DNA from: Phycicoccus sp. Soil802
GTDB taxonomy: Bacteria > Actinomycetota > Actinomycetes > Actinomycetales > Dermatophilaceae
DNA length: 64,000 nucleotides
Direction: 5' to 3'
Assembly (NCBI RefSeq): GCF_001429605.1
Contig: NZ_LMSS01000007.1
Coordinates: 186,001 to 250,000, forward strand
The position numbers and the translations under genes are program-made. Below the pieces are notes generated by a model. It had not been told where the DNA came from and ran no database searches. It saw only the letters and a program-made list of their open reading frames with translations. This document shows, piece by piece, positions 2,370-62,700 of this stretch. The number at the start of each line of letters is the position of its first letter. Within the stretch, counting starts at the first letter, position 1.

Positions 2370-2866
2370 CTCCGTTACGTCTCTCTCTCGCCGAACATCT
2401 AGCTTGGCCGGCTCTTGGCCATCTCCGACCCCCGCGGTCGGGTGTGTCGCACCCGCTTCGCGGCCGGACGACACGCGTTTTCACGCAGTCGTGCGGTTCG
2501 GATTGACCGGCAGAGCCGGGGCTTGCGCTTCCCTGGAGTGTCGCCCCGTGCTGAACGCACGGTTCGAGGTGTGTCACCGGGGGTGGCGGCGTCGACATGG
2601 GTCAACGGCGCGCGTCAAGCAACCGGTCCAGTGTGCCAGAGCGGGCGGCGACCTACCAAATCGAGGCGGTGGCACCCGGCATACCCGCACCGGTGGCGCG
2701 CCGCGCGCCGTCCGCGACGTCCCCACGGGGCCGGCCCCAGTATCCCGCGGGCCCACCTGCGCGGCCGACGCACCCACCGGCCGACCGGGCAGGCCGAACA
2801 CCCGGCCGGGCCCACCGGGGGTGGACACGGCCGGGGCGGCCGGGGGGGTGCAGTTCGGCCGGTCGG
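2370..2866. other. 497-bp gap: S10 operon leader and upstream region
   Basis: No convincing gene is seen. Next to rpsJ lies a leader of at least 80 nt carrying the element at 2425-2449. Further out are short GC-rich repeats and one copy of the octamer GGCATACC at 2678-2685. I could not identify a clear -10/-35 pair for the S10 operon, though one must lie here or read-through from elsewhere must serve it. Confidence 0.5.
2425..2449 (-). promoter_or_regulatory. Leader element of the S10 operon, shared with rpsL
   Basis: On the minus strand the 25-nt element starts CGACACACCCGA and ends GCGGGGGTCGG. It can fold CCGACC against GGTCGG over a GCGGG loop. It ends 55 nt before the rpsJ start. The copy in the rpsL leader (12318-12342) differs at only two adjacent positions. 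A conserved, foldable element in two ribosomal-protein leaders suggests an autogenous or growth-rate control site; the ligand is unknown. Confidence 0.55.
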
Positions 2867-3433
2867 TCAGGGGCGACCGCCGCCGAGGACGCCGGCGTCG
2901 ACGGCCTTGAGGACCGCGGCCCGGTCCGCGGCGGACAGCGTGCCGGCCTTCACCGCCGCGTCGAGCCGGGTGGTCAGCTCCGTCCTGCGGCTCGCCTCCC
3001 GGTCGGCCTTGATCGCGTCGAGGGCGGCCTGGACCTTGACCTGGCTCACCCCGAGCTCCTTGGCCAGCGCGGTGACGCGGGCCTTCTCGCGGGCCTGGCG
3101 CTCGGCGTCGGTCGCCTGGCTGCCCTGCGCCGGCGGGCTGCTCGGCTGCTGCGCCGCCCGCAGCTTCTCCAACGCGGCGGTCACCTTGGCCTCGGTGAGG
3201 CCGAGCTTGGTGGCCAGCGCTGCGGCGTCCAGCCCGCCGGGGCCGCCGTGGTGGCCACCACCGCCGGGTCCGCCGCGGCCGGGCGACGCCTGGGAGGGGG
3301 CCGACGTGGACGTGCCACTGGGCGTCGGCCTGGCGGTGCTGTCGGCCATCGCGGCGCTGGCGCCGATCCCGGCGGCGACCGCAGCCACGCCTCCGGCGGC
3401 GGCGAGCTTCATGGACTTGCTGACGGTGGGCAT
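2867..3433 (-). CDS. Small secreted protein with two LxxxLGxxxxKVxxAL helical repeats
   Basis: 188 residues. Residues 1-31 are a signal peptide (hydrophobic core AAAGGVAAVAAGIGASAA, likely cleavage after AMA). A Gly/His/Pro-rich linker follows (about 35-66), then two similar helical segments: LATKLGLTEAKVTAAL (about 74) and LAKELGVSQVKVQAAL (about 122). The tail is charged and predicted helical. Such modules occur in exported actinobacterial proteins without a defined function. It stands alone between the S10 leader and a divergent oxidase gene. Function unknown. Confidence 0.75.
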   Translation of the reverse strand: MPTVSKSMKLAAAGGVAAVAAGIGASAAMADSTARPTPSGTSTSAPSQASPGRGGPGGGGHHGGPGGLDAAALATKLGLTEAKVTAALEKLRAAQQPSSPPAQGSQATDAERQAREKARVTALAKELGVSQVKVQAALDAIKADREASRRTELTTRLDAAVKAGTLSAADRAAVLKAVDAGVLGGGRP

Positions 3434-3596
3434 CGGGGGCGCACTTCCTCTCGTTGACGGGGCGCCGCGGTGCGCCCCTCTCCCGCCGAGGCTGCGCCGC
3501 CGGGCTGGTAGGAGGCCGTGGCGAACCTGTCACGACGCTGTCAGGTCGGCCCCGCCTTCACAGCCACAGCAGTCGACCGACTGGCAGGATCGAGCC

Positions 3597-5506: not shown

Positions 5507-7661
5507 GGTCGTCGAACGACATCGTGATGGGGGCGTTGGTCGCGCTGCCCGACAGGTAGAGGTAGAGGCCGACGCCACCGGCCACCTGGAACCCTGCCGT
5601 CGAGTCCGTCGCGGTCTTCTGCCACGTCGTGGGCTCGGTCGTCCCGGACTTCCAGACCCGCGCCCGAATCGTCGTGGGTGAGGTGCCGGTGACCTGGACC
5701 CGGGCGAGCAGCTTCTCGCCCGCCGCCATCGTGATCCCCGGGATCTGGGTCTCGGCGGCCAGGACGGTCTCCGCGTTCGCCGCGGTGGCCCGCTGCAGAG
5801 ACAACCAGACGCCACCGTTCGACGTGTAGTGCACCTTCGCCCGGTAGTCGCCCACGCCGGCCACCCGCCGGCCGTTGAGCGAGGCGTAGGCCCCGCTGCC
5901 GCTGGCGACCTTGTCGAGGGCGATGGTGGCGCTGAGGTCGGTGCCCGAGGAGGAGACACCGGCCAGCGCAAGCCACGGACCGGATCCCGCAGCGAGCCGC
6001 ACCTGGCCGACCCCCGAGCCGACGGACAGGTTCGTGGCGGACCCGCTGAAGGTCCATGCCCCGCCCGTGTCGGCGCTCCCCCAGCCGCTGGCCAGGGTGC
6101 GGCCGAACGCATCGGCCGCGAGGACGGTCGGCGGGGGCGGCGCGGTGACCGTGACCGAGGTCGTCGTGGTCCCGGTGGCCCCGTTGTTGTCGGTGACGGT
6201 GAGCCGCACCGGGTAGGTGCCGGCCGCGGAGAACGTGTGGCTGGGGGTTGCACCACTGCCGTCGGCGGTCGCGTCACCCCAGTTCCACGCGTACGACGCG
6301 ATGCTGCCGTCGGGGTCGTTCGAGCCGGTGCCGTTGAAGGTGCAGCCCAGGTCGGTGCAGCTGTTCGTGAAGCTCGCCGTGGGCGGCTGGTTGGGCGTCG
6401 GGGCGACCGTCACCGACCGGGTGGTGCTGCCGGTGGCACCGTCGTCGTCGGTCACGGTGAGGGTGATCGTGTAGGTGCCGGCCGCGGCATACGTCCGGCT
6501 CGACGTGACGCCGGTGCCGGTGCCACCGTCGCCGAACTGCCAGGCGTAGGAGCTGATCGTGCCGTCGGGGTCGCTGCTGGCCGCGGCGTTCACGGTGCAG
6601 GCGAGCTGGGTGCAGCTCGGCGTGAAGTCGGCCACCGGCGGCTGGTTGGGCGGCGCCGCACCACGGGTGATGGTGAACGCGTCGGTGAAGGTGAGGCCCG
6701 CAGCCCGGCGGAAGTTCGCGGTGAGGACGTCGGCCGTGACCGAGAAGTCGAGCACGCCGAAGGTGGGGTTGATGTTGAGCCCGGCGTAGGCGGCGAAGTA
6801 GCCGGCCTCGGGGTCGGTGGTGTTGACGTCGCGCTGGTTGATGCCGCCGGTGCCGACCGTCGCGAAGACGGTCCCCGCGCCCGCGGCGAGGTCGTTGTCG
6901 GAGTCGACGACGCAGGACGCGTTGAACGTGCCGGGCACGAGCTGGGTGCACCCCGCTCGGGTGGTGAGCTGTTTGGTGCGCTGGTAGAGGTGCTCGTGAC
7001 CACCGAGGACGAGGTCGACCTTCTTGGTGAGCAGCAGGTTGGCCAGGTCGGAGCCCATCTCGCAGGCGTACTGCCCCAGGCTCAGGCACGGTGTGTGGTT
7101 GCCGACGACGACCCACGGGATGCCCGCCGCCCGAGCGGAGTCGATCGCCGCGGCGGTCCAGGTGTACTGCGGGGTGCCGACCGCGTAGCTCAGTGTGCCG
7201 GCGGTGAACGGGATCCCGGCCGCCACGGCGATGTAGCGCACCAGAGGAGCGTTGGCGGGCACGTCGACGTAGTACTGGCGGCCGTAGGTGCCCTTGAGGC
7301 CGGGCAGCTGGTTGGGCAGGCAGGCCGAGAAGTCGTTGATGTTGCCGTTCTGTCCGTTGCTCTCGTGGTTGCCGGAGACCAGCTCGAAGGGATAGCCCTC
7401 GCCCACCCCGGCCTTGACCGCGTTGCACCACGCGTCCTCGGCGCCGGTGGTGCCGTAGGACATGTCACCGAGCGCGGCGTGGAAGTCGTTGTCGAGCGAT
7501 CCGATCAGGTTGAAGACGCTGGTCGCGTTTCCGCCCGCGGAGAAGTCGCCCGCGGCGCTGAACCGCACGGTCGGGTCACCGGGTGCCGACGCCACCGGAG
7601 CCGCGAGCACGGTGAGGAGCACCGCAGTCGCCAGCGCCACGCGGCGGAACCGTCCGGTCAT
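5484..7661 (-). CDS. Secreted metallophosphoesterase with two PKD domains and a C-terminal sandwich domain
   Basis: 725 residues. Signal peptide 1-26. Calcineurin-like phosphoesterase at about 30-300 with GDFS, LGDMSYG, SGNHE, VGNHTPC and GGHEHLYQR metal-site motifs. Two PKD domains follow (about 335-420 and 425-505), each with SDPDG/NDPDG, W-x-FGD/WNWGD and TYTITLTV/TYPVRLTV signatures and a Cys pair. The last 200 residues look like a concanavalin-type beta-sandwich (DAFGRTLASGWGSADTGGAW). It probably acts outside the cell on phosphate esters or nucleotides; the substrate is unknown. ATG start; monocistronic and convergent with the acetyltransferase. Confidence 0.88.
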   Translation of the reverse strand: MTGRFRRVALATAVLLTVLAAPVASAPGDPTVRFSAAGDFSAGGNATSVFNLIGSLDNDFHAALGDMSYGTTGAEDAWCNAVKAGVGEGYPFELVSGNHESNGQNGNINDFSACLPNQLPGLKGTYGRQYYVDVPANAPLVRYIAVAAGIPFTAGTLSYAVGTPQYTWTAAAIDSARAAGIPWVVVGNHTPCLSLGQYACEMGSDLANLLLTKKVDLVLGGHEHLYQRTKQLTTRAGCTQLVPGTFNASCVVDSDNDLAAGAGTVFATVGTGGINQRDVNTTDPEAGYFAAYAGLNINPTFGVLDFSVTADVLTANFRRAAGLTFTDAFTITRGAAPPNQPPVADFTPSCTQLACTVNAAASSDPDGTISSYAWQFGDGGTGTGVTSSRTYAAAGTYTITLTVTDDDGATGSTTRSVTVAPTPNQPPTASFTNSCTDLGCTFNGTGSNDPDGSIASYAWNWGDATADGSGATPSHTFSAAGTYPVRLTVTDNNGATGTTTTSVTVTAPPPPTVLAADAFGRTLASGWGSADTGGAWTFSGSATNLSVGSGVGQVRLAAGSGPWLALAGVSSSGTDLSATIALDKVASGSGAYASLNGRRVAGVGDYRAKVHYTSNGGVWLSLQRATAANAETVLAAETQIPGITMAAGEKLLARVQVTGTSPTTIRARVWKSGTTEPTTWQKTATDSTAGFQVAGGVGLYLYLSGSATNAPITMSFDDLKAVPFP

Positions 7662-7753
7662 GGCCCGAAACTAACCCCGGACCGGCCCGGCCACCTCCCC
7701 CACGAGCCGTACCCGGGAACGGGCACACCCGGCATACCGGGCAAAAGCAACAA

Positions 7754-11343: not shown

Positions 11344-11383
11344 CCGGTATGCCGCGTGCGCGCGGTGGCACGCGGCATACCGG
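11344..11383. repeat. Inverted repeat built from GGTATGCCGCG, inside the str operon
   Basis: Perfect 16-bp arms (CCGGTATGCCGCGTGC and its complement) around an 8-nt loop. It sits between the rpsG stop and fusA. There is no T-run after it on the minus strand, and strong termination here would silence fusA and tuf, so it may be an attenuator, an mRNA 3'-end stabiliser or a processing site. Confidence 0.8.
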
Positions 11384-12542: not shown

Positions 12543-12615
12543 ATCGGTTACCCCCGGCCCCACGCGGCACCGGACGGTACAACGCCGCAGGTCGTTCCCG
12601 TATGCCGGGCCACCC

Positions 12616-12711: not shown

Positions 12712-12756
12712 GAGGGCGGGTATGCCGCGTGGTGACCACGCGGCATACCCGCCCTC
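12712..12756. terminator. 45-bp GGTATGCC palindrome after rpoC, probable terminator
   Basis: Perfect 22-bp arms beginning GAGGGCGGGTATGCCGCG around a single central base, starting 20 bp after the rpoC stop. It contains two of the GGTATGCC/GGCATACC octamers. A stem this long and stable downstream of the last gene of an operon is most simply a terminator, although a T-run is lacking on the minus strand. Confidence 0.65.
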
Positions 12757-12775: not shown

Positions 12776-16654
<3,879 letters not shown>

Positions 16655-16709
16655 GTGGTTCCTTCTTCCGTGTCTCTTGCTTGAAACTAAGGGGTTGGTC
16701 ATGAGGGGA

Positions 16710-21281: not shown

Positions 21282-21836
21282 TCAACCGACGAACTCAAGG
21301 TTCTCCACCTTCCACTCGTCGCCAACCATCCGCAGGTCGAGCCGCATCCGGTAGGTCTTGGTCTCGCCGTTGGGGACGGCGGTGTTCCTGGTCGGCGCGA
21401 CGACCCCGACGAGCGCGACCGCCGAGTCCTGGTCACCGGAGACCAGGGCGGCCTCGGTGCGCGCGACGGACGACACGGTCTTGTTGGCGACCAGGACCTT
21501 GCTCAGGTCGGCCGCCGAGGTCGAGTAGCTCTTGAGGAACTCCCCCGTCGCCCCCGCCTTGACCCGTGCCACGTCGGCGTCGACCTTGGTGTAGTCGACC
21601 GTGACGAAGTTGATGGCCAGCTGCTTCGCGGCGGCCACGGCGGCGGCGTTGGCCGCCTCGGTCTGCCGCGCGGCATACCAGTCGCGACCGCGGGTCGCCC
21701 CGAGCGCGAGGCTCGCCACGAGCGCCACGGCCACCACGACCCACAGCATGCGGGGGGTGAGGCGCAGCGCCCGGGCGCGGTCGCCGGGGGTCAGGCGCGC
21801 CGGCATCGGGTCGGCGACGGTGGTGATGGTGCTCAT
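21282..21836 (-). CDS. Mce-associated membrane protein (first)
   Basis: 184 residues. The ATG is chosen because AAGGAGG lies 7 nt upstream and it overlaps the MceF stop as ATGA. One membrane segment (MLWVVVAVALVASLALGA, about 30-48) is followed by an external Mam-type domain with VTVDYTKVDADVARVKAGATGEF and ends in VGDEWKVENLEFVG. It parallels the gene after it and probably arose with it by duplication. Likely a periplasm-side accessory factor of the Mce complex. Confidence 0.82.
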   Translation of the reverse strand: MSTITTVADPMPARLTPGDRARALRLTPRMLWVVVAVALVASLALGATRGRDWYAARQTEAANAAAVAAAKQLAINFVTVDYTKVDADVARVKAGATGEFLKSYSTSAADLSKVLVANKTVSSVARTEAALVSGDQDSAVALVGVVAPTRNTAVPNGETKTYRMRLDLRMVGDEWKVENLEFVG

Positions 21837-23104
21837 CGAGCAGCCTCCTTCATGATCCACAACCACGAGGACTCGCTGCTCTCACCTCCGGACGGAGGCA
21901 GGGGCACCGACACCTGTGGTGTTGCCATGCCCAACGAGGCAGCCAGGCCCGGGGATACGGGTTGGTCGCCGAAAGCGAAGGGAACCGTCGAGTTCGTGCT
22001 CGACGACGGGCCGGGGGCGTTCTGCGCGCCGCGCACGCTGGTGCCCGACCCGCGGGCCGCGGTGCACCGGGCGGCGGTGTTCGCCTTGGCGTCGGTGGTG
22101 ACGCTCGGGCTGCGCCGCTTGGTGCCCTGGTAGCCCTGGGTGCAGACCGGCGGGTCGTGCGCGAGGGCCAGCCCGAAGTGGGCCGAACCGTCGCCCGGCA
22201 CCACCGTGTAGCCACCGGCCACGACGTCGGGGTAGGTGACCAGCAGCTGCTGGATCCCGTCGACCCGCGAGGTGGTCACCTGGCCGATGGTGATCAGGTT
22301 GGCGAGCAGGGCCGCGAGGTTGCCCCGGTTGTCCCTGACCAGGGTGTCGAGCTCCTTGGAGGCCACCGCGCCGCGGTCGAGGATCAGCCTCAGGTCGCCG
22401 TCAGAGGACTTGAGGGTCTCGGACAGGTCGGCGAAGTTGCTCGCGAACACCTTGACGTCGCCGGCGGTGTCGCGCTGGGTGTCGAGCACGATCCGGCCGT
22501 CGTCGATCAGCTTGATCGTCTCGGGGAGCGCCTCGGTGGCCGACTTGGTCAGGGCGTCGCCGCTGTCGATCAGGCGCTGGAGGTCCTCCCCACCATCGGC
22601 GAAGCCCTTGCCCAGCTCGTCGACCACGGTGGACAGGTCCTGCTTGTCCACCGAGTTCACCGTCTGGTCCAGGTCCAGGAGGAGCGTGTCCACCCGCAAC
22701 GGGTATGCCGTGTCCTTGCGCGGGATCGCGTCGCCGTCGGCGAGGTCGGGCCCCGTGTCGCTGCGCGGCTGGAAGTCGAGGTACTGCTCCCCCACGGCGG
22801 ACCGGTTCTCGACGACGACCTTGGTGTCCTTCGGGATCTTCACCCCGCGCTGGATCTTCGCATCGACGATGACCCCGTCCTTCGACAGCCGCAGGTCGTC
22901 GACCCGTCCCACGGTGACCCCGCGGTAGGAGACCTCGGACCCGACGAAGATGCCGCCGGACTGCTCGAAGTCAGCCGTCACGTGGATCTGCCCACCGGCG
23001 ACCCGGTCGTAGAGGCCGACGTAGCGTGCGGACAGCAGCGAGACCGTGAACAGGGTGATCAGCAGGAACGCGGCCAGCTGCACCTTGACGGACCGGCGGA
23101 TCAT
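21833..23104 (-). CDS. MceF-type substrate-binding protein
   Basis: 423 residues. One N-terminal membrane anchor (VQLAAFLLITLFTVSLLSARYVG), then the MlaD/Mce domain (about 38-115: VTADFEQSGGIFVGSEVSYRGVTVGRV) and a long alpha-helical MCE-repeat region (about 120-300) that in Mce complexes forms the lipid tunnel. The C-terminal 100 residues are Pro/Ser-rich and disordered. Its ATG overlaps the MceE stop. Last of six MCE proteins in the operon, the position of MceF. Confidence 0.9.
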   Translation of the reverse strand: MIRRSVKVQLAAFLLITLFTVSLLSARYVGLYDRVAGGQIHVTADFEQSGGIFVGSEVSYRGVTVGRVDDLRLSKDGVIVDAKIQRGVKIPKDTKVVVENRSAVGEQYLDFQPRSDTGPDLADGDAIPRKDTAYPLRVDTLLLDLDQTVNSVDKQDLSTVVDELGKGFADGGEDLQRLIDSGDALTKSATEALPETIKLIDDGRIVLDTQRDTAGDVKVFASNFADLSETLKSSDGDLRLILDRGAVASKELDTLVRDNRGNLAALLANLITIGQVTTSRVDGIQQLLVTYPDVVAGGYTVVPGDGSAHFGLALAHDPPVCTQGYQGTKRRSPSVTTDAKANTAARCTAARGSGTSVRGAQNAPGPSSSTNSTVPFAFGDQPVSPGLAASLGMATPQVSVPLPPSGGESSESSWLWIMKEAAR

Positions 23105-24396
23105 GCCGCACCCCCGTCGTAGAGCGAGCGCCACGACTGGTCGTCGCCCGAGGACCCGGACTGCTGGGCCGGGGCGCCCAGCGGGCAGCCGACGATCGGC
23201 GGGCAGCTGGTGCTCGTGGGTGTGGGCCCGCCCGGCAGCACCGGGGGGATGGTCACGCTCGGCACCGGCGGCAGGGTGGGCAGGGGCAGGGTGGGGGTGC
23301 CGGTCGGCAGGCCGCCGCCACCGGGCGGCGTGGTCGGGACGCCGAGGTTGCCGGCAAGGTTCTTCAGGTTCAGGTCCATGTCGACCGACATGTTGGTGAA
23401 GTCGCCCTTCATCGCGCCGGTCGTCGCATCGGAGAACGGGTAGGTCAGCAGCAGCTGCAGCGACTTCGGCAGGTCGTCGCCGGCCTTGGTCAACTGGGCC
23501 AGGATCGGGGCGAGGGCCTTGAGGTTCGCCGCGGTGTCGGCCTTGCTCTGCTGGATGACCTGGGTGCCGATGGCGCCGAGCCGGCTGAGCGCCTGGAGCA
23601 TCTGGACGAGCTGGGTGCGCTGGTCGGCCAGGACCTTCAGGCCGCCCGGCAGTGCCTCGAGCGCGGCCGCGATGTCGTCCTTCTGGGCGGCCAGCTTGCC
23701 GGCGAGCTTGTCGATGTTGTCGATGGCGCGGACGATCTCGGCCTTCTGGTCGTCCAGCCCCCCGACGAAGATGTCGAGCTGCTTGATGACGTCCTTGATC
23801 TGGGCCTGGTTGCCCCGCATGGCGTTGTTGAGCTCGCTCTCGATCACCTTGAGCTGGGCCACGCCACCACCGTTGAGCAGCAGCGACAGGGCGCTCAGGA
23901 CCTCCTCGACCTCGGGGTTGCGACCGGTCCGCGCGAGGGGGATGTTGTCGCCGTCGCCGAGGTGGCCCTCGGGCGCCGCCGAGGAGGGCGCCGAGAGCTG
24001 GACGTACTTCTCGCCGAGCAGCGAGGTCTGCTTGAGCTCCGCGACCGCGTTGTCCGGCAGGTCGATGTTCTTGGGCAGTCGCAGCGTCACCCGGGCCGTC
24101 CAGCCGTTCAGCTCGATCTTCTCGACCGAGCCGACGGTGACCTGGTCGACCTTGACCGACGACTGGGGCACGAGGTCGAGCACGTCGGCGAACTCCGCGG
24201 TGACGCGGAAGATGTCGCCGCGGTTCGCGGCCCCGCCGGGAAGCGGGAGGTCGAACGCGCCCTGGCACCCCGAGACCCCGAGGAGGGTGGCGACGACGAC
24301 GACGCCGGAGAGCAGGCGCCGGGCCCGCGGCATACCGGTGGTCTCTGGTCCGTGGTTCATCGGGCTGTTCATCGGGCTGTTCATCAGGTTGTTCAT
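23101..24396 (-). CDS. MceE-type lipoprotein
   Basis: 431 residues. The signal peptide ends in a lipobox (GVSGC, Cys near residue 43), so it is a lipoprotein, as MceE is in mycobacteria. The MCE domain (VTAEFADVLDLVPQSSVKVDQVTVGSV) and helical region follow; the C-terminus is Pro/Thr-rich (PTGTPTLPLPTLPPVPS). ATG start with GGAGG 7 nt upstream, overlapping the previous stop. The first 15 codons contain a repeated MNSP unit with four in-frame ATG codons, so start choice has some leeway. Confidence 0.9.
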   Translation of the reverse strand: MNNLMNSPMNSPMNHGPETTGMPRARRLLSGVVVVATLLGVSGCQGAFDLPLPGGAANRGDIFRVTAEFADVLDLVPQSSVKVDQVTVGSVEKIELNGWTARVTLRLPKNIDLPDNAVAELKQTSLLGEKYVQLSAPSSAAPEGHLGDGDNIPLARTGRNPEVEEVLSALSLLLNGGGVAQLKVIESELNNAMRGNQAQIKDVIKQLDIFVGGLDDQKAEIVRAIDNIDKLAGKLAAQKDDIAAALEALPGGLKVLADQRTQLVQMLQALSRLGAIGTQVIQQSKADTAANLKALAPILAQLTKAGDDLPKSLQLLLTYPFSDATTGAMKGDFTNMSVDMDLNLKNLAGNLGVPTTPPGGGGLPTGTPTLPLPTLPPVPSVTIPPVLPGGPTPTSTSCPPIVGCPLGAPAQQSGSSGDDQSWRSLYDGGAA

Positions 24397-32428: not shown

Positions 32429-32500
32429 GATGGGCGTCCTTTCTATTTCTTCGTATGCCGTGAGTGGCGGTTTGGTGTGCGAGCTGGGGTCCCGGAGGAC

Positions 32501-40398: not shown

Positions 40399-40604
40399 CG
40401 GATTTCCTTCTGTGGTGGTGTTGGTGATGGTGTGCGACGACCGCGTGCCGCCGCCCTCCAAGAGTCCGGTCGACCGTGGGTCCCGGGCATCGGTAGGCAC
40501 TGCCCATCTGTCTGCCCGCTGGCTGCCCATCGACCTGCCCACACCGCTGCCCGGGTGACCGGGCTGCGGACGGCGACTTCGCGGCATACCGGGGCTCTGG
40601 GAGC

Positions 40605-41912: not shown

Positions 41913-41923
41913 CCCGCTCCTCA

Positions 41924-42014: not shown

Positions 42015-42079
42015 GGTCCGGGCGGGGTATGCCGCGGGCTCCCCTTGCGGGGGCATCGCGGGTCCCGCAAGGTGGACGC

Positions 42080-43969: not shown

Positions 43970-44967
43970 GCCAGCGCTCCCGGGTGGTGGCCCTCGCGGT
44001 GGTCGTGGTGCTGTGCGTCGGCGGCGTCGTCGCGTATGCCGTGTCGAGCCGGCCGGCGCCCGCCGCACGCACGCCGACGAGCGTCCCGAGCGCCTCGCTG
44101 GCCGAGGTGGAGGCCGTGCCGCACCTCGTCTACCGGTCGACGGCCCTGGGTCCCGACTTCGGCAAGGTGGCGATGTCCACGCTGGCCGACCCTGCCGGCC
44201 CGCGCGCCGTCACCGCGGACGCCTGCGAGCGCGTCGACCAGCGAGGAGGGACCACGCTCTGCCTCCGCTCGCGACCGGGGGTGGTGCTGGGCAGCTCGGT
44301 CACGGCCTGGGACCGCACCGGCCACGTGACCTACCGGCGCAACCTGCCCGGCATACCCAGTCGCGCGCGACTCTCCCCCGACGGCAGGTTGGCTGCCACC
44401 ACGGCCTTCGTGGCCGGCGACTCGTACCTCAGCGCCGGCTTCGCCACCCGCACCTACGTGCACGACCTGGCGGCGGGCACCGCGGTCCACCTCGAGGACT
44501 TCGCGCTCACCCACGAAGGCCGCCGGATCACCCCGGTCGACCGCAACTACTGGGGGGTGACCTTCCTCGACGACAACACCTTCTACCTCACCGTCGCGTT
44601 CGACGGACGGCCGTGGCTGGCCCGGGGAAGCGTGTCGAAGCGGTCGGTCACCACGGTGCGCTCGGGCGCGGAGTGCCCCTCGCTGTCACCGGACGGGCGA
44701 CGGGTGGCCTACAAGAAGCTGCAGCCGTCCTCGCGGGGGTGGCGGATCGCCGTGCTCGACCTGGCCACGGGAAGCGAGCGGCTGCTGGCCGAGACCCGCA
44801 GCGTCGACGACCAGGTGCAGTGGCTCGACGACTCCACCGTCCTCTACGGGCTCCCCCTGACCGGCGAGCGAGGCGGTGAGACCGACCTCTGGGCGGTCCC
44901 CGCCGACGGGGCCGGTGCGCCGCGCCTCCTCGTGCCGCAGGCCTGGTCGGCGTCGGTCGTCCGCTAG
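43966..44967 (+). CDS. Membrane-anchored beta-propeller (TolB-like) protein
   Basis: 333 residues. One N-terminal membrane anchor (VVALAVVVVLCVGGVVAYAV, about 6-27), then WD/TolB-type blades with ARLSPDGRLAATT and CPSLSPDGRRVAYKK motifs. It is probably tethered outside the membrane. Start ATG overlaps the transporter stop, so the two are co-expressed and may act together, but no substrate is suggested by sequence. Confidence 0.78.
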   Translation: MSQRSRVVALAVVVVLCVGGVVAYAVSSRPAPAARTPTSVPSASLAEVEAVPHLVYRSTALGPDFGKVAMSTLADPAGPRAVTADACERVDQRGGTTLCLRSRPGVVLGSSVTAWDRTGHVTYRRNLPGIPSRARLSPDGRLAATTAFVAGDSYLSAGFATRTYVHDLAAGTAVHLEDFALTHEGRRITPVDRNYWGVTFLDDNTFYLTVAFDGRPWLARGSVSKRSVTTVRSGAECPSLSPDGRRVAYKKLQPSSRGWRIAVLDLATGSERLLAETRSVDDQVQWLDDSTVLYGLPLTGERGGETDLWAVPADGAGAPRLLVPQAWSASVVR

Positions 44968-45016: not shown

Positions 45017-46072
45017 ATGCCGCGCCCGGTGACCGACCTGCCCAAGGCGCACCTGCACCTGCACTTCACCGGCTCGATGCGCGTGGAGACCGTGCGTGAG
45101 CTGGCCGAGAAGCACCACCTCCACCTCCCCGACGCCCTCACGACGGGGTACCCGCCGCAGCTGAGTGCGCGCGACGAGCGCGGGTGGTTCCGGTTCCAAC
45201 GGTTGTATGACGCGGCCCGCGCCTGTGTGCGCGACGAGGCCGACCTGAGGCGCATCGTCCGGGAGGCCGCGCTGGACGACGCGAGCGAAGGGTCTCGGTG
45301 GCTCGAGATCCAGGTGGACCCGACCTCCTACGCGCCCTTCGTCGGTGGCATCACCCCCGCCCTCGAGATTGTGCTCGACGAGGCCGCCGCCGCGTCCCGC
45401 GAGGGGTCGACGCAGGTCGCCGTGGTCGTGGCGGCGAGCCGCATCCGCCACCCCCTCGACGCCCGCACCCTCGCCCGGCTGGCGGCCCAGCATGCCGGCG
45501 AAGGTGCCGGGACCGTCGTCGGGTTCGGGCTCAGCAACGACGAGCGACGCGGGCAGACCGCCGACTTCGCCCCGGCCTTCGCCATCGCCCGGCGGGCCGG
45601 CCTGGCCTTGGTGCCCCACGCCGGTGAGCTGCTCGGCCCCACCGCGGTCGAGTCCACGCTGGAGGCGATCCGGCCGGACCGGATCGGCCACGGCGTGCGC
45701 AGCGTGGAGGACCCCCGCGTGCTCGAGCTCGTCGCTGAGTCGGGCGTCGCCCTCGAGGTGTGCCCTCGGAGCAACGTCGCCCTCGGGGTCTACGGCAGCA
45801 ACGCCGAGGTGCCCCTGCGCACGATCGTCGAGCACGGCATACCGGTGGCACTGGGCGCCGACGACCCGTTGCTGTTCGGGTCCCGGTTGGCCGCCCAGTA
45901 CCAGCTGGCCCGCGACGCCCTCGGCTTCACGGACGAGGAGCTGGCCACCCTCGCACGGGGCTCGGTGACGGCCTCGCGCGCGCCCGCCGAGGTGCGGGAC
46001 GCGGTCCTGGCCGACATCGACACCTGGCTGGCGACCCCACCTGACGCGGCCGGACCCGACCCGAGTCTTTGA
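45017..46072 (+). CDS. add: Adenosine deaminase family protein
   Basis: 351 residues. Zinc-binding HxH in KAHLHLHFTG, His of VPHAGE with the proton-donor Glu, RIGHGV, and the GADDP motif match the adenosine/adenine deaminase family. Likely salvages adenosine to inosine, though adenine or aminodeoxyfutalosine as substrate is possible. ATG start (MPRPVTDLPKAHLH). The stop codon lies inside a bidirectional hairpin shared with convergent murB. Confidence 0.88.
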   Translation: MPRPVTDLPKAHLHLHFTGSMRVETVRELAEKHHLHLPDALTTGYPPQLSARDERGWFRFQRLYDAARACVRDEADLRRIVREAALDDASEGSRWLEIQVDPTSYAPFVGGITPALEIVLDEAAAASREGSTQVAVVVAASRIRHPLDARTLARLAAQHAGEGAGTVVGFGLSNDERRGQTADFAPAFAIARRAGLALVPHAGELLGPTAVESTLEAIRPDRIGHGVRSVEDPRVLELVAESGVALEVCPRSNVALGVYGSNAEVPLRTIVEHGIPVALGADDPLLFGSRLAAQYQLARDALGFTDEELATLARGSVTASRAPAEVRDAVLADIDTWLATPPDAAGPDPSL

Positions 46073-47652: not shown

Positions 47653-48095
47653 TCCCCTCCTCGGATGACGATGGTGGAGGTCGAGGTGCACAGCGCCTCG
47701 CCCTCCTCGGTGGTGAGCTCGGTGCGGGTGGTGACCATCGCGTGGCCGCCCGCCTCGCGGACGGTGTCGACCGTGAGGGTGCCCAGCACGGAGTCGCCGG
47801 CCGTGATCGGGCGGTGGTGGACGAAGCGCTGCTCGCCGTGGACCACCCGGCTGTAGTCGATACCGGCCTCGGGGTCCTGGACGAACACCGCGTCGCACTG
47901 CTGCGCGATCGTCACGGCGAAGGTCGGCGGCGCGATCACGTCGCGGTAGCCGGCGGCCTGCGCGGCCTCGGTCGAGGTGTGCACGGGGTCCTGCGAACCC
48001 ACCGCGGAGGCGAACGCCGCGAGCATCGCCGCGTCCACGGCATACGGGCCACTGGGCGGGTAGCTGCGCCCTGCGAAGTCTGCGTTGACGGCCAT
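47649..48095 (-). CDS. MaoC-type dehydratase N-terminal-domain protein, HadA-like
   Basis: 148 residues, FAS1-type N-terminal MaoC fold without the catalytic Asp-His pair, with VIAPPTFAVTIAQQCDAV and GEQRFVHHRPITAGDSV. In HadAB this subunit binds the acyl chain while its partner catalyses. ATG start MAVNADFAGR. Forms a coupled pair with the following gene. Confidence 0.87.
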   Translation of the reverse strand: MAVNADFAGRSYPPSGPYAVDAAMLAAFASAVGSQDPVHTSTEAAQAAGYRDVIAPPTFAVTIAQQCDAVFVQDPEAGIDYSRVVHGEQRFVHHRPITAGDSVLGTLTVDTVREAGGHAMVTTRTELTTEEGEALCTSTSTIVIRGGE

Positions 48096-48722: not shown

Positions 48723-48759
48723 GGTATGCCGCGCGGCCGGGCCCGCGCGACGGCATTCC
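48723..48759 (-). terminator. Imperfect GGTATGCC hairpin after the acyl-CoA dehydrogenase
   Basis: Arms CCGCGCGGCATACC and GGAATGC-CGT-CGCGCGG with a 3-nt bulge and one mismatch. It starts 32 bp past the stop codon. One arm keeps the exact octamer; the other has diverged, unlike the perfect hairpins elsewhere. Confidence 0.5.
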
Positions 48760-50528: not shown

Positions 50529-50717
50529 CGTGGCGTGCTCCTGTGCTGGCAGGGTGCCGCGTGGCCCGCGGCGGTGTGGGGTTGCGGCCACCCTTCCACG
50601 CGACCGACCACTTTCAGGGTAGGTCACCGCAGGTCCACATGTCCGGACGACCTCGTCATCGTCCGTTTGGGCGGGTCGGCGGCCATGGGCCGTGCGGTGG
50701 GTATGCCGTGGGGCGGG

Positions 50718-51519: not shown

Positions 51520-52374
51520 TCACGCCCCTGCCGCGGCCAGGACGGCCCGTCGGGCGAGGACCGTGGCGAGGTGCCTGCGGTAGTCGCTGTCGCCGTTGAG
51601 GTCGGACGGCGGGTTGGTGCCCTCCGCGGCCGCAGCACAGGCCTCCCGCACCGCCTCGTCGGTGGCTGCCTTGCCCACCAGCGCCTGCTCCACGGCGGTG
51701 GCCCGCAGCGGGGTGGACCCCATGTTGGTCAGCCCGATCCTCGCCTCGGCGATCGTGCCGCCGTCGACCCGGACCGTCGCGGCGACCGCGACGATCGACC
51801 ACTGGTGGGAGACCCGGACGAACTTCTCGTAGCGGTGGCCCCAGCCGGTGTGCTTCGGGACGCGGATGGCGGTGAGCAGCTCGCCCTCCCCCACCGCCGT
51901 CTCGAACAGGTCCTGGAAGAAGTCGGCTGCCGCGACGGTGCGCTCACCACCGCTGCCGGTGATGACGAACTCCGTCTCGAGCGCGAGCGCCGGAGCCCCC
52001 ACGTCGCCGGCCGGGTCGGCGTGCACGAGCGCGCCACCGACCGTCCCGCGGTGCCTGATCTGCGGGTCGGCCACCTCGGCGATCGCGTCGGTGAGCAGCC
52101 CCGCGTGCTGACGGACGAGGTCGCTCGCCAGCACATCGGCATACGTGGTCATCGCACCGATGACGACGTGGTCGCCGTCCTCGGACACGCCCTTGAGCTC
52201 CTCGATCCGGCCGAGGTCGATGACCTTCTCCGGGGCGTTGAGCCGCATCCGGAGGATGGGCAGCAGGCTCTGGCCGCCGGCCAGCACCTTGGCGTCGTCG
52301 CCGGCCTCGGCCAGCGCCGCGAGGGCGTCGGCGACCGAGGTGGGGGCGACGTAGTCGAACGATGCGGGGATCAC
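51520..52374 (-). CDS. coxM: Molybdenum hydroxylase FAD-binding medium subunit
   Basis: 284 residues. FAD motif VLAGGQSLLPILRMRL and TVGGALVHADPAGD mark the CoxM/CutM family. It passes electrons from the iron-sulfur subunit to an acceptor. GTG start overlapping the CoxL stop as GTGA. The operon order S-L-M matches form II clusters rather than the M-S-L order of form I CO dehydrogenases. Confidence 0.91.
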   Translation of the reverse strand: MIPASFDYVAPTSVADALAALAEAGDDAKVLAGGQSLLPILRMRLNAPEKVIDLGRIEELKGVSEDGDHVVIGAMTTYADVLASDLVRQHAGLLTDAIAEVADPQIRHRGTVGGALVHADPAGDVGAPALALETEFVITGSGGERTVAAADFFQDLFETAVGEGELLTAIRVPKHTGWGHRYEKFVRVSHQWSIVAVAATVRVDGGTIAEARIGLTNMGSTPLRATAVEQALVGKAATDEAVREACAAAAEGTNPPSDLNGDSDYRRHLATVLARRAVLAAAGA

Positions 52375-55479: not shown

Positions 55480-56676
55480 TCAATCCGGGTGGTTTCCGGT
55501 GGCCTCCTCGGATCGCGACGTCGCGGCCACCAGACCGGGTGCGTGGTGGTGGATCGGGCCCTCGCGGTGGCCCAGGCGCTCGCCCCGGCCGCCCCACTGG
55601 AGGGCGATGATCTCCGCCGCGATGCTCACCGCGGTCTCCTCCGGCGTGCGGGCGCCGAGGTCCAGACCGACCGGGCTCGACAGGCGCGCCAGCTCGACCT
55701 CGGTGAGGCCGGCCTCGCGCAGCCGCGCCAGCCGGTCGTCGTGGGTGCGGCGCGAGCCCATCGCCCCGACGTAGGCCACCTCGGGGAGGCGGAGGGCGAC
55801 CTCGAGGACCGGCACGTCGAACTTGGGGTCGTGGGTCAGCACGCAGATGACGGTGCGCGCGTCGATCCGGCCGGCGTCGCGCTCGGCCTCGAGGTAGCGG
55901 TGTGGCCAGGTGACGACGACCTCGTCGGCCGACGGGAAGCGGGAGGTGGTGGCGAAGACGGGCCGGGCGTCGCAGACCGTCACGTGGAAGCCGAGGAAGT
56001 GCCCCTGGTGGGCCACCGCAGCGGCGAAGTCGATGGCGCCGAAGACCAGCATCCGCGGCTTGGGCGCGAACGACGAGACGAAGACCCGCATGCCCTCACC
56101 GCGGCGCTCGCCGTCCGGGCCGTAGGTCAGCGTCTCGGTGCGTCCGGAGGCCAGCATGCCGCGGGCGTCGTCGGTGACGGCGTCGTCGGCCCGGGGTGAG
56201 CCCAGTGACCCGGTCGACGCGCCGGCGCTGCTGTCCTGCTCGGGCCGCACGATGAGCCGGCGCCCGAGCCAGGCCGGGTCGGGGTGCTCGATGACGGTGG
56301 CCACGGCGACCGGTCGCCCGGCCTCGATGTCCCGGGCCACTTCGTCGAGCTCCGGGAAGCTCTCCCGGCTCACCCGCTCGACGAACACGTCGAGGATGCC
56401 CCCACAGGTGAGGCCGACGGCATACGCGTCGTCGTCACTCACGCCGTAGCGCTGCAGCACCGGTGTCCCGTCGGCGACGACTGACTGGGCGAGCTCGTAG
56501 ACGGCTCCCTCGACGCAGCCGCCGCTGACCGAGCCGACCGCCTCCCCGCCCGGCCCCACGAGCATCGCTGCCCCGGCCGGTCGCGGCGCCGACCGCCAGG
56601 TGCCCACGACCGTCCCGACGCCGACGGTCGCACCCGCCCGCCACCAGCGGAGCAGCTCGGGAAGCACCTCACGCAC
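55480..56676 (-). CDS. XdhC/CoxI-family molybdenum cofactor protein
   Basis: 398 residues. N-terminal XdhC-CoxI domain ([15 protein letters not shown], Cys conserved) and C-terminal Rossmann XdhC_C domain ([18 protein letters not shown]). XdhC binds and sulfurates Mo cofactor before insertion. GTG start overlaps the VWA gene by 8 bases. Probably matures the downstream CoxSLM enzyme. Confidence 0.9.
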
Positions 56677-57781
56677 GGCCGACCACCTCCACCAGCTCCT
56701 CGAAGGCGGCCATCGAGTGGCCTGCCACGAAGTCGTCAACGTGCGGCAGCGCAGCCACGATCCCCTGCTGCACCGGTTGGTAGCCGGGCTTGCCACGGTG
56801 CGGGTTCACCCAGACGACCCGGTGCGCCAGTGCCTGCAGACGACGCATCTGCTCGCCCAGCGCCTCGGGCTCGTCGCGCTCCCAGCCGTCACTGAAGAGG
56901 ACGACGACCGCACCTCGCGCCATCCCGCGCCGACCCCACCTGTCGAGGAAGGCGCGCACCCCCTCGGCCAGCCGGGTGCCGCCCGACCAGTCGGGGACGC
57001 TCGCCCCGCAGGCGACGAGGGCCCGCTCCGGATCGCGCTGTCGCAGGGGCCGGGTCACGTGGGTCAGCCGGGTGCCGAGCGTGAAGACCTCGACCGGCAG
57101 GCCGGTGGCCACGTAGGCGTGGGCCAGTCGCAGCAGGGCGTCGGCATATGCGCTCATCGACCCCGAGACGTCGACCAGCAGGACCACTCGGCGGGCCCGA
57201 GTCCCCCTGTGGCGCCAGGCGATCGGGCCCGGTTCGCCCATCCTGCGCAGCTGCTCCCTCAGGGTCTTCCGGGCGTCGACCGCTCCGCGGCGGGCCGGGG
57301 TCTGTCGGTGCGCCGGCCGGCGTGGCGCGCGTGGCCGCAGGGCTCCGAACATCGCGGCGAGCCTGGCCCGCTCGGCGCTGCTGAGCGAGGCGACGTCGCG
57401 GTGCCGGAGCACCTCGGCCGCACTCGCCTGGGCGCGGACCACGTCCTCGGGCGACTGCGGGTCCTCGGTCGAACCCCGCCCGAGGTCGAGCGGGGCCTGC
57501 GCCACGGTGTGGGTCGAGTCGCGGCGCCGCCGGGTGCCGGCGCGCTCGAGGCCGAACCACGCGGCATACACCTGGTCGTGCCGCTCGAGGTCGGCGGGCG
57601 AGGCGCACAACGTCGCCCGGCCGGCCCAGAAGGCTGCCGACTGGTCGTCGGCGCCCACGGCCTCGACCGCCTCGAGGTAGGTGCGCTCACGGTCGGCGGT
57701 GACGTTGACCCCGGCGGCCCGCAGGGCGCGCGCGAACCCGAGGAGGATCTCGTCCGCGGCGTGCGCCGGCGCGATGGTCAT
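56669..57781 (-). CDS. CoxE-type von Willebrand factor A protein
   Basis: 370 residues. The C-terminal VWA domain has the MIDAS motif DVSGSMS and SGGTRLAEGV; the N-terminal half is basic and Arg-rich. CoxE works with the MoxR ATPase CoxD in inserting or activating the Cu-Mo or Mo-S centre of CO dehydrogenases. ATG start overlaps the MoxR stop. Role here inferred from the pairing. Confidence 0.88.
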   Translation of the reverse strand: MTIAPAHAADEILLGFARALRAAGVNVTADRERTYLEAVEAVGADDQSAAFWAGRATLCASPADLERHDQVYAAWFGLERAGTRRRRDSTHTVAQAPLDLGRGSTEDPQSPEDVVRAQASAAEVLRHRDVASLSSAERARLAAMFGALRPRAPRRPAHRQTPARRGAVDARKTLREQLRRMGEPGPIAWRHRGTRARRVVLLVDVSGSMSAYADALLRLAHAYVATGLPVEVFTLGTRLTHVTRPLRQRDPERALVACGASVPDWSGGTRLAEGVRAFLDRWGRRGMARGAVVVLFSDGWERDEPEALGEQMRRLQALAHRVVWVNPHRGKPGYQPVQQGIVAALPHVDDFVAGHSMAAFEELVEVVGRA

Positions 57782-58836: not shown

Positions 58837-59409
58837 TCAGAGGTCGTCGGGGCTGTCGACGTCGCGTCCGGTGGCGAGGTCACCGCACTCGACGAGCGCG
58901 TGGTCGTGGGTGGCGAGGTAGTCGCGAGCGCCCCTGTCCCCGGCCGCGACGTCGAGGACGCCCTGCCAGTGGTCGCGTCCCATGACGACCGGGTGCCCCG
59001 GGACGCCGTGGTATGCCGCGCGCGCCAGCGCCGCGGCTCCGGCACCGACCGCGGCGGTCACCCGCTCCACGACGGCGGCGCCGACGTCGGGCAGGTCGAC
59101 GAGCAGGATGCACACGACCGCTGCGTCCGTCGACTGGAGCGCGGCAACGCCGGCGCGCAGTGAAGCGCTCTGTCCCCGGGCCCAGTCCGGGGCCTCGACC
59201 ACGAGGTCGGCCCCGGCCGCCGTCGCCAGCTCGGTGGCCCGTGCCGCCTCGGCGCCCACCACGACGACCACCGGCGAGCACCTGCCGGCCCGCAGCACGC
59301 GCACGCCCCGCTCGACGAACGAGCCACCGGCGGGGTCGTCGACCAGCGCCTTCGGGGTGCCCATGCGGCGACCTCCCCCGGCAGCGAGGAGCAGCCCGGC
59401 TGGTTTCAC
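58837..59409 (-). CDS. MocA/MobA-like nucleotidyltransferase
   Basis: 190 residues. LLLAAGGGRRMGTPKALVD (NTP-binding loop with K) and LLVDLPDVGAAVVERV with its metal-binding Asp match molybdopterin cytidylyltransferase-type enzymes. It would make the cytosine dinucleotide cofactor used by Cox-type hydroxylases. GTG start. Its place beside the Mo operon supports the role. Confidence 0.85.
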   Translation of the reverse strand: MKPAGLLLAAGGGRRMGTPKALVDDPAGGSFVERGVRVLRAGRCSPVVVVVGAEAARATELATAAGADLVVEAPDWARGQSASLRAGVAALQSTDAAVVCILLVDLPDVGAAVVERVTAAVGAGAAALARAAYHGVPGHPVVMGRDHWQGVLDVAAGDRGARDYLATHDHALVECGDLATGRDVDSPDDL

Positions 59410-59454: not shown

Positions 59455-59727
59455 TCAGACCGGCGGCTCGGCCTGGCGCGGGTCCTCGACGTAGCGGTGC
59501 CCGGTGGAGAGCGCCACGGAGACGGCCTCGAGCCAGCGCGGTGGCTGCTCGCCGATCCCCCGCGCGGCCAGGCCTGCCGCCAGGTCGGCCCGGAGGTCGG
59601 CGGGGTCACGGCCCTCCGCGTCGCGGCCGAGCCCGTCGATGACCTCCTGGATGACGGTCTGGACGACCCGGTGGCGGTCGACGTCACCTTCGTCCATCGA
59701 CGCCAGGTCACGGTCGTGCTCACTCAT
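59455..59727 (-). CDS. Small hypothetical protein
   Basis: 90 residues, predicted mostly helical, no signal or membrane segment. ATG start MSEHDRDLASMDEGD. Lies between the MocA-like gene and the carboxylase, 45 bp upstream of the former. I do not recognise a family. Short acyl-CoA carboxylase epsilon-like proteins are known beside such carboxylases, so a partner role is possible but unproven. Confidence 0.6.
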   Translation of the reverse strand: MSEHDRDLASMDEGDVDRHRVVQTVIQEVIDGLGRDAEGRDPADLRADLAAGLAARGIGEQPPRWLEAVSVALSTGHRYVEDPRQAEPPV

Positions 59728-59798
59728 GGTTCCTCCTGCGGTCGGGTATCCGTCGACCCTCCCGTACCCGCCCGGCGGGAAGCCATGCGTCCGGGTGG

Positions 59799-62700
59799 TC
59801 AGCTCCTGCGGGCCAGCCCGGCCTCGATGGCCGCGATGATCCTCGGCCGCAGCTCGTGCGGGTCGATGACGGCGTCGACCGAGCCGACACTGACCGCCCG
59901 GTGGATGCTGTGCACCGCGTCGAACTCCGACGCGACCTCACCGAGCTTCTCGCTGCGCACCGCGGTGCGCAGGTCGGCCAGCTCGGTCGCGATGAGCGCC
60001 CGCTCGGCGCCGGTGGCCTCGCCCAGGCGGGACTCGGCCTCCGTGACCCGGGGGTCGGCCGCGGTACGGGCATCGACGTCGCGGGAGAACACGACCGCGG
60101 CGGCCGGGGCGCCACCGATCACTGAGGCGAACGACCCCTCGACGGCGAGCACGGTCATCTCGGGGTTGAGGGCCTTGGAGAACACCACGAACGCGCCACC
60201 GTGGTAGCGGCTGACGACGCAGAAGACGATCGGGCCCTCGAAGTTGACGATGGCCCGGCCGATCTCGGCGCCGTACTCGAGCTGCAGGTTGCGCATCGAC
60301 TCGGGAGACCCGTCGAAGCCGGACAGGTTGGCCAGCACGACGAGGGGACGGTTGCCACTGGCGGCGTTGATCGCGCGGGCGGCCTTCTTCGACGACCGCG
60401 GGAAGAGCGTGCCGGCCGTGTAGGTGTCCGGGCCGTCGGTGGGCGGGAACCCGCGCCGCGCGACGGTCTTCGACTCGATCCCGAGGAGGCAGACCGGGAT
60501 GCCGCCGAGGTGGGCGTCCTGGACCACTGCGGTCTCGGCGTCGGCCATGCCGGCCCAGCGCTCGAGGGTGGGGTGGTCCTGGTCGGCGACCGCAGCCATC
60601 AGGATCCGGATGTCGAACGCCTTCTTGCGGTCGGGGTTCGTGGCCGGCGAGAAGATGTCGCCCACCGTGGTGAACCCCGAGTCCGGGATGACGTGCGGGT
60701 ATGCCGTGACGTCCCGGTCCGCGGGGTCCGTGGTCTTCGCGCGGCGCGGGCCGGGCTCACCCGGGTGGACGTAGGTGTGGTCGTAGTGCGCCATCAGCAC
60801 GTCACGCGCCCCGGCGAGGTCCGGCGCCCAGTACTGCGCCTGGCCGTTCGGGCCCATCACGCGGTCGTAGCCGCCGATCCCGAAGTTGTCCTCGGCGGAG
60901 ACGCCACCGGAGAAGTCCAGCGACTGCTTGCCGGTCAGCACCATCGCGCTGTCCGGGGTCATCACGAGGATGCCCTTGGTGTGCATCAGCATCGTCGCCT
61001 CGGCGTTCCAGTAGGGCTGGGCGCCGACGTTGATCCCCGCGACCACGATGTTGATCTCGCCGCCGGACTGGGTGAACTCGATGATCCGCTTGAGGGCCTT
61101 CGCGACCCAGTCCATGTTCTCGGTGCCCGAGTCCATCGAGATCCGGGCGCCGGCGGACAGCGCGAACCACTCGACCGGCACCTGCAGCTGCTCGGCCAGG
61201 TCGAGGGCGGCGATGACCCGGGTGCACTCGGCCTCGGACACGGCGCCGAGGGCCTTGAGCGGGTCGCCGCACAGCAGCACCCTGGTCATGCCTTCGGGGT
61301 AGCGCTCGGTGGGCGTCGTGATGAGCCCGGCGATGATCCCGGCCTTGTTGAGGCCGTATGGACGGTCGACGGGGGCGAGCGCGCCGGTGTCGTCGAGGTC
61401 GTACTCGGTGGCCGTCCCACCGGGACCGGCGATCATGGCCTGCAGCTCGTAGGGGTAGACGACGCCCCGACGCCGCGCCCGGACCACCTTCTGCGCGTAG
61501 TCGTCGAGCGGCTGCAGCCGCGTGGTCGGGGGCTCCTGCACCGAGGTGACGACACCGGAGCCGGGCTGGAAGTGGAACCGGGCGGCCAGTGGCGCGATGG
61601 CGCCTCCGGGCGCCGCGATCCGGCCCTGCACCAGGACCTCCTCGATGCCCGCACCCGCGGTGAGCGGGGCGATCTTGGCCTGGAGGGCCGTCAGCTGGTC
61701 GAGGTCGGCCTCGATCGGGGGCCAGATGTGCACCCAGACGTGGTTCATGTCGAGCTTGGCGCCCGCTGCTCCTCGCGCGGCGCGGGCGCGGCGGATGGCC
61801 TCGAGGCAGTTGGCGATGGCGCGCTCCGCGTGGGGCAGGGCGGTGACCCGACCCTGGTCGTCGCGAACGACGACGAGCTGGCGCACCTGGGCCAGCGCCA
61901 CGAGGCGCTGGTCGGCCTCGTTGCCGGGGGCGGTGCAGAGGTAGAGCAGCACGTCCTCGGGGGCGTCGAGGCGGGTGACGTCGAAGTCGCGCAGCCGCCA
62001 GAGGTTCAGCCGCCGCCCGACCATGGGGTGCACGCCGCGGACGAGGCGGTCCTCGACCATTCCTCCGGACCCGTCGGGACGGAAGGTGAAGTAGGCGACC
62101 GGGCGACCCGCGCCGGGGCAGACGGCGATCGCGACCCGGCGCAGGCCGTGCGCGAACGGCATGGCGGCGAGGAGCTCGCCCAGCCGCGCCGAGGCGTCCT
62201 CGGGTGACGCGGGCTCGTCCGGCCAGGACAGGTAGAGGTCGACGACGCCCTCCGAGCCCGCGGCCGTCTCGTCGAGCTGGGCCGCCACGGCCTGCTCGAG
62301 CTCACCGCCGGGGACGAGCTCGTCGACCCGGCCGACACTCGTGACCAGGTGGGTGCCGCGGCCGTCGAGCGTGTAGTCAGCCACCGCGAAGGGACGGCCG
62401 TCGACCGCGAGCTCGCGCAGGCCGGTGAGGTCGTGCTCGCGGTAGTGCCGCTTGATCAGGACCGCGAGCATCGGCTCGCGCTGCGGGACACCGCCTTCGA
62501 GGCGCTCGGCCAGGAACTGCACGATCTGCTCCGGGATGGCGGCCAGCGCGTCGATGCGGCGGGCGCGGTCCTCGCCACCCGGCATACCCTCCAGCGCGGT
62601 GAGCTCGTCGCTCACGCCACCGAGGACGCTCGCCCGGTCGGCGTCGACCAGCGGCTGGTCGAACCACCGGAACCGCACGCTCCGCGCGAGGTCGCCCACG

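Follow-up and report, generated by a model that had tools for sequence, protein, structure and literature searches.

Why does one short word recur on both strands, inside genes and between them, through a stretch of actinobacterial chromosome? The question is raised by 64,000 nucleotides from Phycicoccus sp. Soil802 (Dermatophilaceae; contig NZ_LMSS01000007.1, positions 186,001 to 250,000), the whole of which we call the window. An earlier note on this DNA, made from the letters alone, had reported 20 exact copies of the octamer GGTATGCC between positions 2678 and 62588. We recovered all 20. Nine lie on the plus strand and 11 on the minus strand, so the claim that both strands are used also holds, and 100 dinucleotide shuffles gave a mean of 0.53 copies and a maximum of two.

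The count was extended to the complete 4.29 Mb genome, as the earlier note had suggested. GGTATGCC is present in 625 + 604 = 1229 copies, compared with 5 + 3 = 8 for the reversed word that served as control, and is thus far above expectation. Because the copies are spread across the entire genome, local duplication is ruled out as the source of the excess. The octamer is therefore enriched as proposed, but as a unit it is one slice of the true core; a G follows all 20 copies in the window. Ranking of all k-mers identified this core as GTATGCCG, with 31 copies in the window and 2241 in the genome (1143 + 1098), against 51 (25 + 26) for its reversed control. A 450 kb sample of the same genome (C7:1-250000 plus C1:300001-500000) contains 246 copies, where a second-order Markov model predicts 5.9.

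On its 3′ side the core is followed by a variable base (C over T over G) and then by G, and copies in gene gaps tend to the consensus (G)GTATGCCG(C)G(T/C)GG. The base on the 5′ side depends on the lineage, being mostly G in Soil802 (131/246) and mostly C in six Terrabacter loci (46/71). Conservation declines once about 13 bases from the start of the core are passed. A repeat of the repetitive extragenic palindrome (REP) or miniature inverted-repeat transposable element (MITE) type was considered and rejected, as no conserved unit extending past that point was found.

Does the word act in DNA or in protein? In the Soil802 genome the tyrosine codon is TAT in 79 of 88 cases inside the GTATGCCG context, compared with 85/2106 outside it. 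Similarly, alanine preceding TAC is encoded by GCA in 45/75 cases inside the context and in 1/193 outside. The word acts at the level of DNA, not of protein, and codon choice is overridden inside genes.

The copies of the core in the window are given below, an inverted pair occupying a single line. Here and throughout, G numbers label the genomes compared and L numbers label loci.

2677..2684, minus strand: GTATGCCG core copy, part of a GGTATGCC match
6485..6492, minus strand: core copy
7730..7737, minus strand: core copy in a gap, about 100 bases past the stop of a putative EF-Tu gene (named from the start of its sequence)
11346..11381, both strands: inverted pair forming a hairpin, copies at 11347 (plus) and 11373 (minus); −23.5 kcal/mol, z −5.95
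12600..12607, plus strand: core copy, intergenic
12719..12749, both strands: inverted pair whose 18-bp hairpin is perfect, lying about 27 bases past the stop of the minus-strand ORF 12776-16702, which we take to be rpoC from its position beside rpoB; −26.1 kcal/mol, z −8.67
21671..21678, minus strand: core copy
22703..22710, plus strand: core copy
24328..24335, minus strand: core copy, intergenic
28337..28344, minus strand: core copy, coding; word shared, at the orthologous position, with P. bigeumensis, K. locipacati and Janibacter HTCC2649
32453..32460, plus strand: core copy, about 40 bases past a stop codon
35147..35170, both strands: inverted pair forming a hairpin, copies at 35148 (plus) and 35162 (minus); −18.6 kcal/mol, z −7.10
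40582..40589, minus strand: core copy
40703..40710, plus strand: core copy, coding; identical in 5/5 aligned Pedococcus/Phycicoccus loci (L081-L084, L086)
42027..42034, plus strand: core copy, intergenic
44034..44041, plus strand: core copy, intergenic
44349..44356, minus strand: core copy, intergenic
45835..45842, minus strand: core copy; the orthologous site is GGATGCCG in the dialect species Humibacillus DSM 29435 (see below)
48038..48045, minus strand: core copy
48724..48731, plus strand: core copy, intergenic, close to tRNA genes
50701..50708, plus strand: core copy, intergenic
52137..52144, minus strand: core copy, coding
56418..56425, minus strand: core copy
57562..57569, minus strand: core copy, intergenic
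59011..59018, plus strand: core copy, coding
60699..60706, plus strand: core copy, coding
62580..62587, minus strand: core copy, coding
63777..63784, plus strand: core copy, coding

The earlier note had divided its 20 octamers into 12 intergenic and eight coding copies. This is plausible; our gene caller, which is crude and gives unreliable ORF starts, places nine of the 20 in gaps and four more within 40 bases of an ORF start. In the 450 kb sample coding DNA accounts for 174 copies of the core, at 0.46 per kb, and gaps for the other 72, at 0.96 per kb, twice the coding density. Spacing is approximately random, with a coefficient of variation of about 1. Gap copies cluster behind genes, with 37 of 73 distances to a neighbouring stop codon shorter than 50 bases; 12.8 would be expected of positions drawn at random in gaps. 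Copies lying less than 60 bases apart (21 pairs) are mostly inverted, 15 being plus-minus, five minus-plus and one minus-minus, and the three such pairs in the window all fold into stable hairpins with the energies listed.

A relative assembled as one contig, G004, allowed polarity to be examined. In 18 of its stretches, each of 20 kb, there are 90 forward and 98 reverse copies, showing no replichore polarity, and 17 of the 18 carry between 5 and 16 copies. The sole poor stretch, with one copy, encodes a transposase of the IS110 type, a resolvase domain, a DnaJ and a DUF4192 protein. Phage TJE1 has two copies in 49.0 kb, equal to its reversed control, this being a single phage whose host was not checked for the word. 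GC content set against word density gives rho 0.20 (p 0.06).

Another repeat was noticed in the same DNA. A dispersed element around GACCCGATAAAG occupies approximately 41895-42045 of the window, with further copies elsewhere in the 450 kb sample. Counted by CCCGATAAAG, it has 13 copies in the sample, all in gene gaps, of which 10 form five inverted pairs at a fixed offset of 75 bases.

How widely is the word shared? A genome was classed as rich at 150 or more copies of GTATGCCG per strand, a threshold set after inspecting the tables, at which all passing genomes have at least 2.5 times their control; the genomes in each word class were tallied by hand. By this measure GTATGCCG is common in 110/186 Dermatophilaceae genomes. 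None of 22 genomes from other families of the order is rich, the maximum being 79/88 per strand with a control of 91/93. All 11 genomes of Soil802's own genus have the word, at 293 to 2003 copies per strand, and their totals span a roughly 6-fold range from 625 (G010) to 3986 (G002). Lone members of word-rich genera (G065, G127 and G151) have it at background. The reversed control is itself elevated in some word-rich genomes, to 200-300 per strand (e.g., G062, G066 and G025). Reversed words lie inside GCCGTATGCCG in four of five cases in stretches of G066 and in five of five in six Terrabacter loci; they overlap GTATGCCG there, and the control is therefore partly composed of the word itself.

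Named relatives, collected by means of nusG, put the window close to Pedococcus, Phycicoccus, Knoellia, Terrabacter and Tetrasphaera. We examined 43 of 80 nusG loci for over-represented words, and GTATGCCG was the top 8-mer in seven of ten ranked groups. There were no copies in the nusG loci of Kytococcus, Allobranchiibius, Arthrobacter silviterrae, one Brevibacterium and two Jiangella. Eight of the 11 words around nusG in Soil802 could be aligned to Pedococcus bigeumensis, and seven of these are identical. The share of conserved words tends to drop as relatives grow more distant, and in three GTATGCCG-poor species the word is retained at 0/15 aligned sites. Shared words are undercounted in these comparisons, because gapped alignments in gene gaps were scored as different.

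Is the word the same wherever the family has one? The nusG locus of Humibacillus DSM 29435 contains a single GTATGCCG; its top 8-mer is GGATGCCG, with 22 copies against 1.6 expected. GGATGCCG is one base removed from GTATGCCG, and is thus a dialect of it. It is high, at 983 to 2258 copies per strand, in seven of the 186 genomes (G026, G071, G083, G084, G085, G086 and G202), two of which also carry GTATGCCG, at 609/608 (G085) and 566/623 (G086). A weak rise of the dialect was seen in G011 (674/662, control 150/160) and G180 (662/548, control 156/124).

Other lineages have words unrelated to GTATGCCG. CGAAGGGG occurs at 592 to 1615 copies per strand in 19/186 genomes, comprising all 16 of g62 and all three of g66; the remaining 167 hold at most 209. 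Another unrelated word, GGTCTACG, is found at 596/587 in G065 only (1/186), with at most 245 in all others; four congeners of G065 retain GTATGCCG. Both CGAAGGGG and GGTCTACG occur where GTATGCCG is at background, i.e., the words are mutually exclusive. In total, 134/186 genomes reach such levels for one of the four words. Since neither GTATGCCG, CGAAGGGG nor GGTCTACG is a palindrome, an iterated palindrome of the HIP1 type is excluded.

The words were placed on a tree of a single gene, RpoB, for 70 of 76 searched family genomes (support values not shown); G015, G071, G085, G093 and G178, which have partial or fragmented matches, and G091 are omitted. In the coding, three genomes with a weak rise counted as GTATGCCG, the two with weak GGATGCCG as having no word and the genome with both words as GGATGCCG. 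Under Fitch parsimony the words change 15 times. The GGATGCCG dialect arises at two separate places, and CGAAGGGG and GGTCTACG are nested among GTATGCCG lineages.

CGAAGGGGG was validated in independent stretches, at 43.3 (G098) and 40.0 (G132) per 100 kb, with three plus-minus inverted pairs. Three candidate words from GTATGCCG-poor genomes, CAGGAACA (G151), GATGAGGA (G024) and CCGGGAAGA (G034), did not hold up when independent stretches were examined. Unproven candidates are CGCCGTAC and CGTCGTAC in G127 and CGTACGCC and CGTACGTC in G034, which were raised also in stretches outside the discovery set (L215-L217 and L235-L238 for G127; L209, L210 and L239-L241 for G034), and GCCAGCAC is a weak candidate in G011. 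Two local repeats were also seen, three copies of GCCAGGGAGTCTGCA in about 280 bases of Ornithinimicrobium sediminis (L116, 7726-8000) and, in a locus of Nocardiopsis (L154, 6340-6391), a tandem array whose 7-base unit is CTGAGCC.

What could place such words in a genome? The earlier note had likened the octamer to DNA uptake sequences (DUS). The genome-wide frequency, the exclusion of local duplication, the dialect, the replacement words, the hairpins and the competence genes favor that comparison; it is weakened by the finding that no gene we tested tracks the word. The Soil802 genome encodes ComEA and ComEC, together with a Flp/Tad locus of Flp pilins, RcpC/CpaB, a TadA-type ATPase and T2SSF proteins. 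The reading that we find most likely, and hold with some though by no means full confidence, is that GTATGCCG(C/T)G serves as the self-recognition word of sequence-biased DNA uptake (natural transformation) in the Dermatophilaceae. Separately, we observed three Tad-type loci in C2 and C5 of this genome (L323, L324 and L325). L325 has Flp pilins, one of them confirmed by Pfam; L323 and L324 were examined in part.

The DUS-like anatomy of the words and the Com/Flp gene set lead us to propose a receptor with a sequence preference coupled to a molecular drive. We infer that a DNA receptor at the cell surface, possibly carried by the Flp/Tad pilus or situated next to it, would bind fragments bearing the word. 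ComEA and ComEC would import one strand, and recombination would swap homologous segments. Alleles bearing the word would be taken up more often, and words would therefore pile up by molecular drive at sites where they are tolerated: in synonymous codons, between genes and in the stems of hairpins that follow genes. If the specificity of the receptor shifted, the genome would re-accumulate another word: GGATGCCG as a dialect, or one of the unrelated pair CGAAGGGG and GGTCTACG.

Several observations weigh against this proposal. ComEC is present in 36/36 genomes, TadE in 35/36 and a T2SSE ATPase (at least 140 bits) in 40/40, with the word or without it, and ComEA was recognized by motif in 13/13 loci, ten of them in GTATGCCG-poor genomes. 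Tested genomes that lack all four words possess these genes almost invariably. We conclude that presence or absence of ComEC, TadE, T2SSE ATPases, PilM or RecC is not the cause of the word, as none of them tracks it. PilM, the marker of type IVa (T4a) pili, was found in 2/36 family genomes and 0/11 of the genus, ComP not being included in the search, and no receptor was found. G005 is word-rich (2537 words) although its comEC is split over two frames (G005:C1:1517076-1517881), perhaps by a sequencing error or a recent loss. At the thresholds used, all four words are missing from 52/186 genomes, some of which show weak rises. A depletion in mobile DNA would be based on one stretch and one phage, and we found no paper on natural transformation in Dermatophilaceae/Intrasporangiaceae. 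Finally, the same pattern could be left by any sequence-specific DNA-binding protein that evolves fast and is selected genome-wide.

One such protein might organize the chromosome or repair DNA, its specificity having changed between lineages and the copies being kept by selection on chromosome structure. The even spread over 17 of the 18 stretches of G004, the occurrence in genes as well as gaps and the lineage specificity of the words would all be expected of its binding site. We nevertheless regard this as unlikely, given the roughly 6-fold range within one genus, the background level in G065, G127 and G151, and the random spacing; moreover, wholesale replacement among congeners is hard to square with a structural role. 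The non-palindromic, lineage-specific and fast-changing words also recall the specificities of type I, type III or bacteriophage exclusion (BREX) systems, and the earlier note had proposed a methylation site. A self marker of a defence system, either a methylated site of this kind or one that a nuclease reads as protective, is improbable, however, in that restriction normally selects against sites and modification alone would give no cause for accumulation; the excess after stop codons and in hairpins would be unexpected too. The hairpins immediately after stop codons would suit a transcription terminator or a REP-type family copied through the genome, yet 174 of the 246 sampled copies are coding and conservation reaching about 13 bases from the core start is too short for a REP unit, making this explanation very hard to credit.

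Chi sites are likewise lineage-specific octamers of high density, and all six CGAAGGGG genomes tested have RecC, as does the GGTCTACG genome. RecC was, however, not found in the Soil802 genome (99.97% complete) nor in 16/22 GTATGCCG/GGATGCCG genomes, in searches that did not extend to AddAB and AdnAB, and this disfavors a RecBCD-Chi role for GTATGCCG. There is no strand polarity within stretches either for GTATGCCG in G004 or for CGAAGGGGG (8 plus and 9 minus), and inverted pairs are unexpected for an oriented site. The Chi or replication-orientation alternative of the earlier note is thus disfavored, and we consider a Chi-like recombination site highly improbable; a site read by AdnAB is possible. 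RecC itself is patchy over 47 family genomes (6/22 with GTATGCCG/GGATGCCG, 6/6 with CGAAGGGG, 1/1 with GGTCTACG, i.e., G065, and 9/18 others). Could the word have arisen by mutation, through deamination of 5-methylcytosine or short-patch repair converting GTACGCCG to GTATGCCG? GTACGCCG is indeed depleted, at 4.4 per 100 kb in Soil802 compared with 19.6 in a GTATGCCG-poor set of 17 stretches of relatives (342 kb, equal GC). But GTATGCCG stands at 54.7 per 100 kb in Soil802 and 0.6 in that set, and a pool of 19.6 precursors is too small to supply the words, which already contradicts this origin. In addition, the word and its 24 one-base neighbors sum to 112 per 100 kb compared with 75 in the poor set; in Ala-Tyr contexts more GCA is gained (12.0) than GCG is lost (5.6 to 0.8), with GCC undiminished; and the unrelated words of sister clades would require separate causes. 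Mutational origin is scarcely credible.

If these are uptake words, the phenomenon extends to the Actinobacteria and to transformation based on Flp/Tad. The family would provide a natural experiment for discovering the receptor by co-variation and for separating drive from selection, and it would be, to our knowledge, the first set in which unrelated words replace each other among close relatives. A wider claim, on which our credence falls just short of even, is that sequence-specific DNA uptake would here have been invented independently for a third time, in Actinobacteria and with Flp/Tad rather than T4a pili. Within one family its word would have been edited (GTATGCCG to GGATGCCG, twice in the tree) and wholly replaced (by CGAAGGGG and by GGTCTACG), splitting related genera into uptake groups that do not exchange DNA with one another. 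Whatever their function, mutually exclusive high-copy words across a family would still call for an explanation. Our search, which was made by title and lay outside preprints and most subscription papers, found no published report of actinobacterial uptake words, and none of the listed literature matches to the literal word, inspected by title, looked relevant.

How does the word compare with the known systems? In Neisseria, DUS are in excess in gene gaps and form inverted hairpin pairs at gene ends, and we have measured both features here. They are bound by the minor pilin ComP on a T4a pilus; the present words belong to a high-GC actinobacterial family, probably monoderm, and to a genus without the T4a marker. 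As with DUS, both strands are used without replichore polarity, and competence machinery is present (ComEA, ComEC and a type IV filament), here in GTATGCCG-poor genomes as well. One account, from 2025, restricts sequence-specific uptake so far to Neisseriaceae and Pasteurellaceae (PMC12616744). For the Neisseriaceae, the DUS survey describes a 10-mer with between 943 and 5918 copies in each genome and a series of dialects, with two dialects in near-equal number in S. muelleri and five genomes without obvious DUS (Frye et al., 2013, PMC3630211). The likeness extends to thousands of copies, one-base dialects, genomes with two dialects (here G085 and G086) and family members without a word. A difference is that here unrelated words, beyond dialects, replace one another within the family. 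On this comparison the word would work like an uptake sequence, as a candidate member of the class that departs from it in the T4a pilus.

The uptake signal sequences (USS) of Pasteurellaceae are an enriched 9-mer with lineage variants whose receptor is predicted rather than demonstrated (PMC12616744). The present word is similarly a short enriched word with lineage variants; word, phylum and pilus type all differ. Micrococcus luteus is a member of a different family. The term 'uptake sequence' is absent from the main text of two papers on that species (PMC4322843, PMC12849477). A third (PMC6370729) describes ComEA, ComEC and Flp/Tad genes in M. luteus, its Flp pili being indispensable for transformation, and the ComEA, ComEC and Flp/Tad genes of Soil802 match that set.

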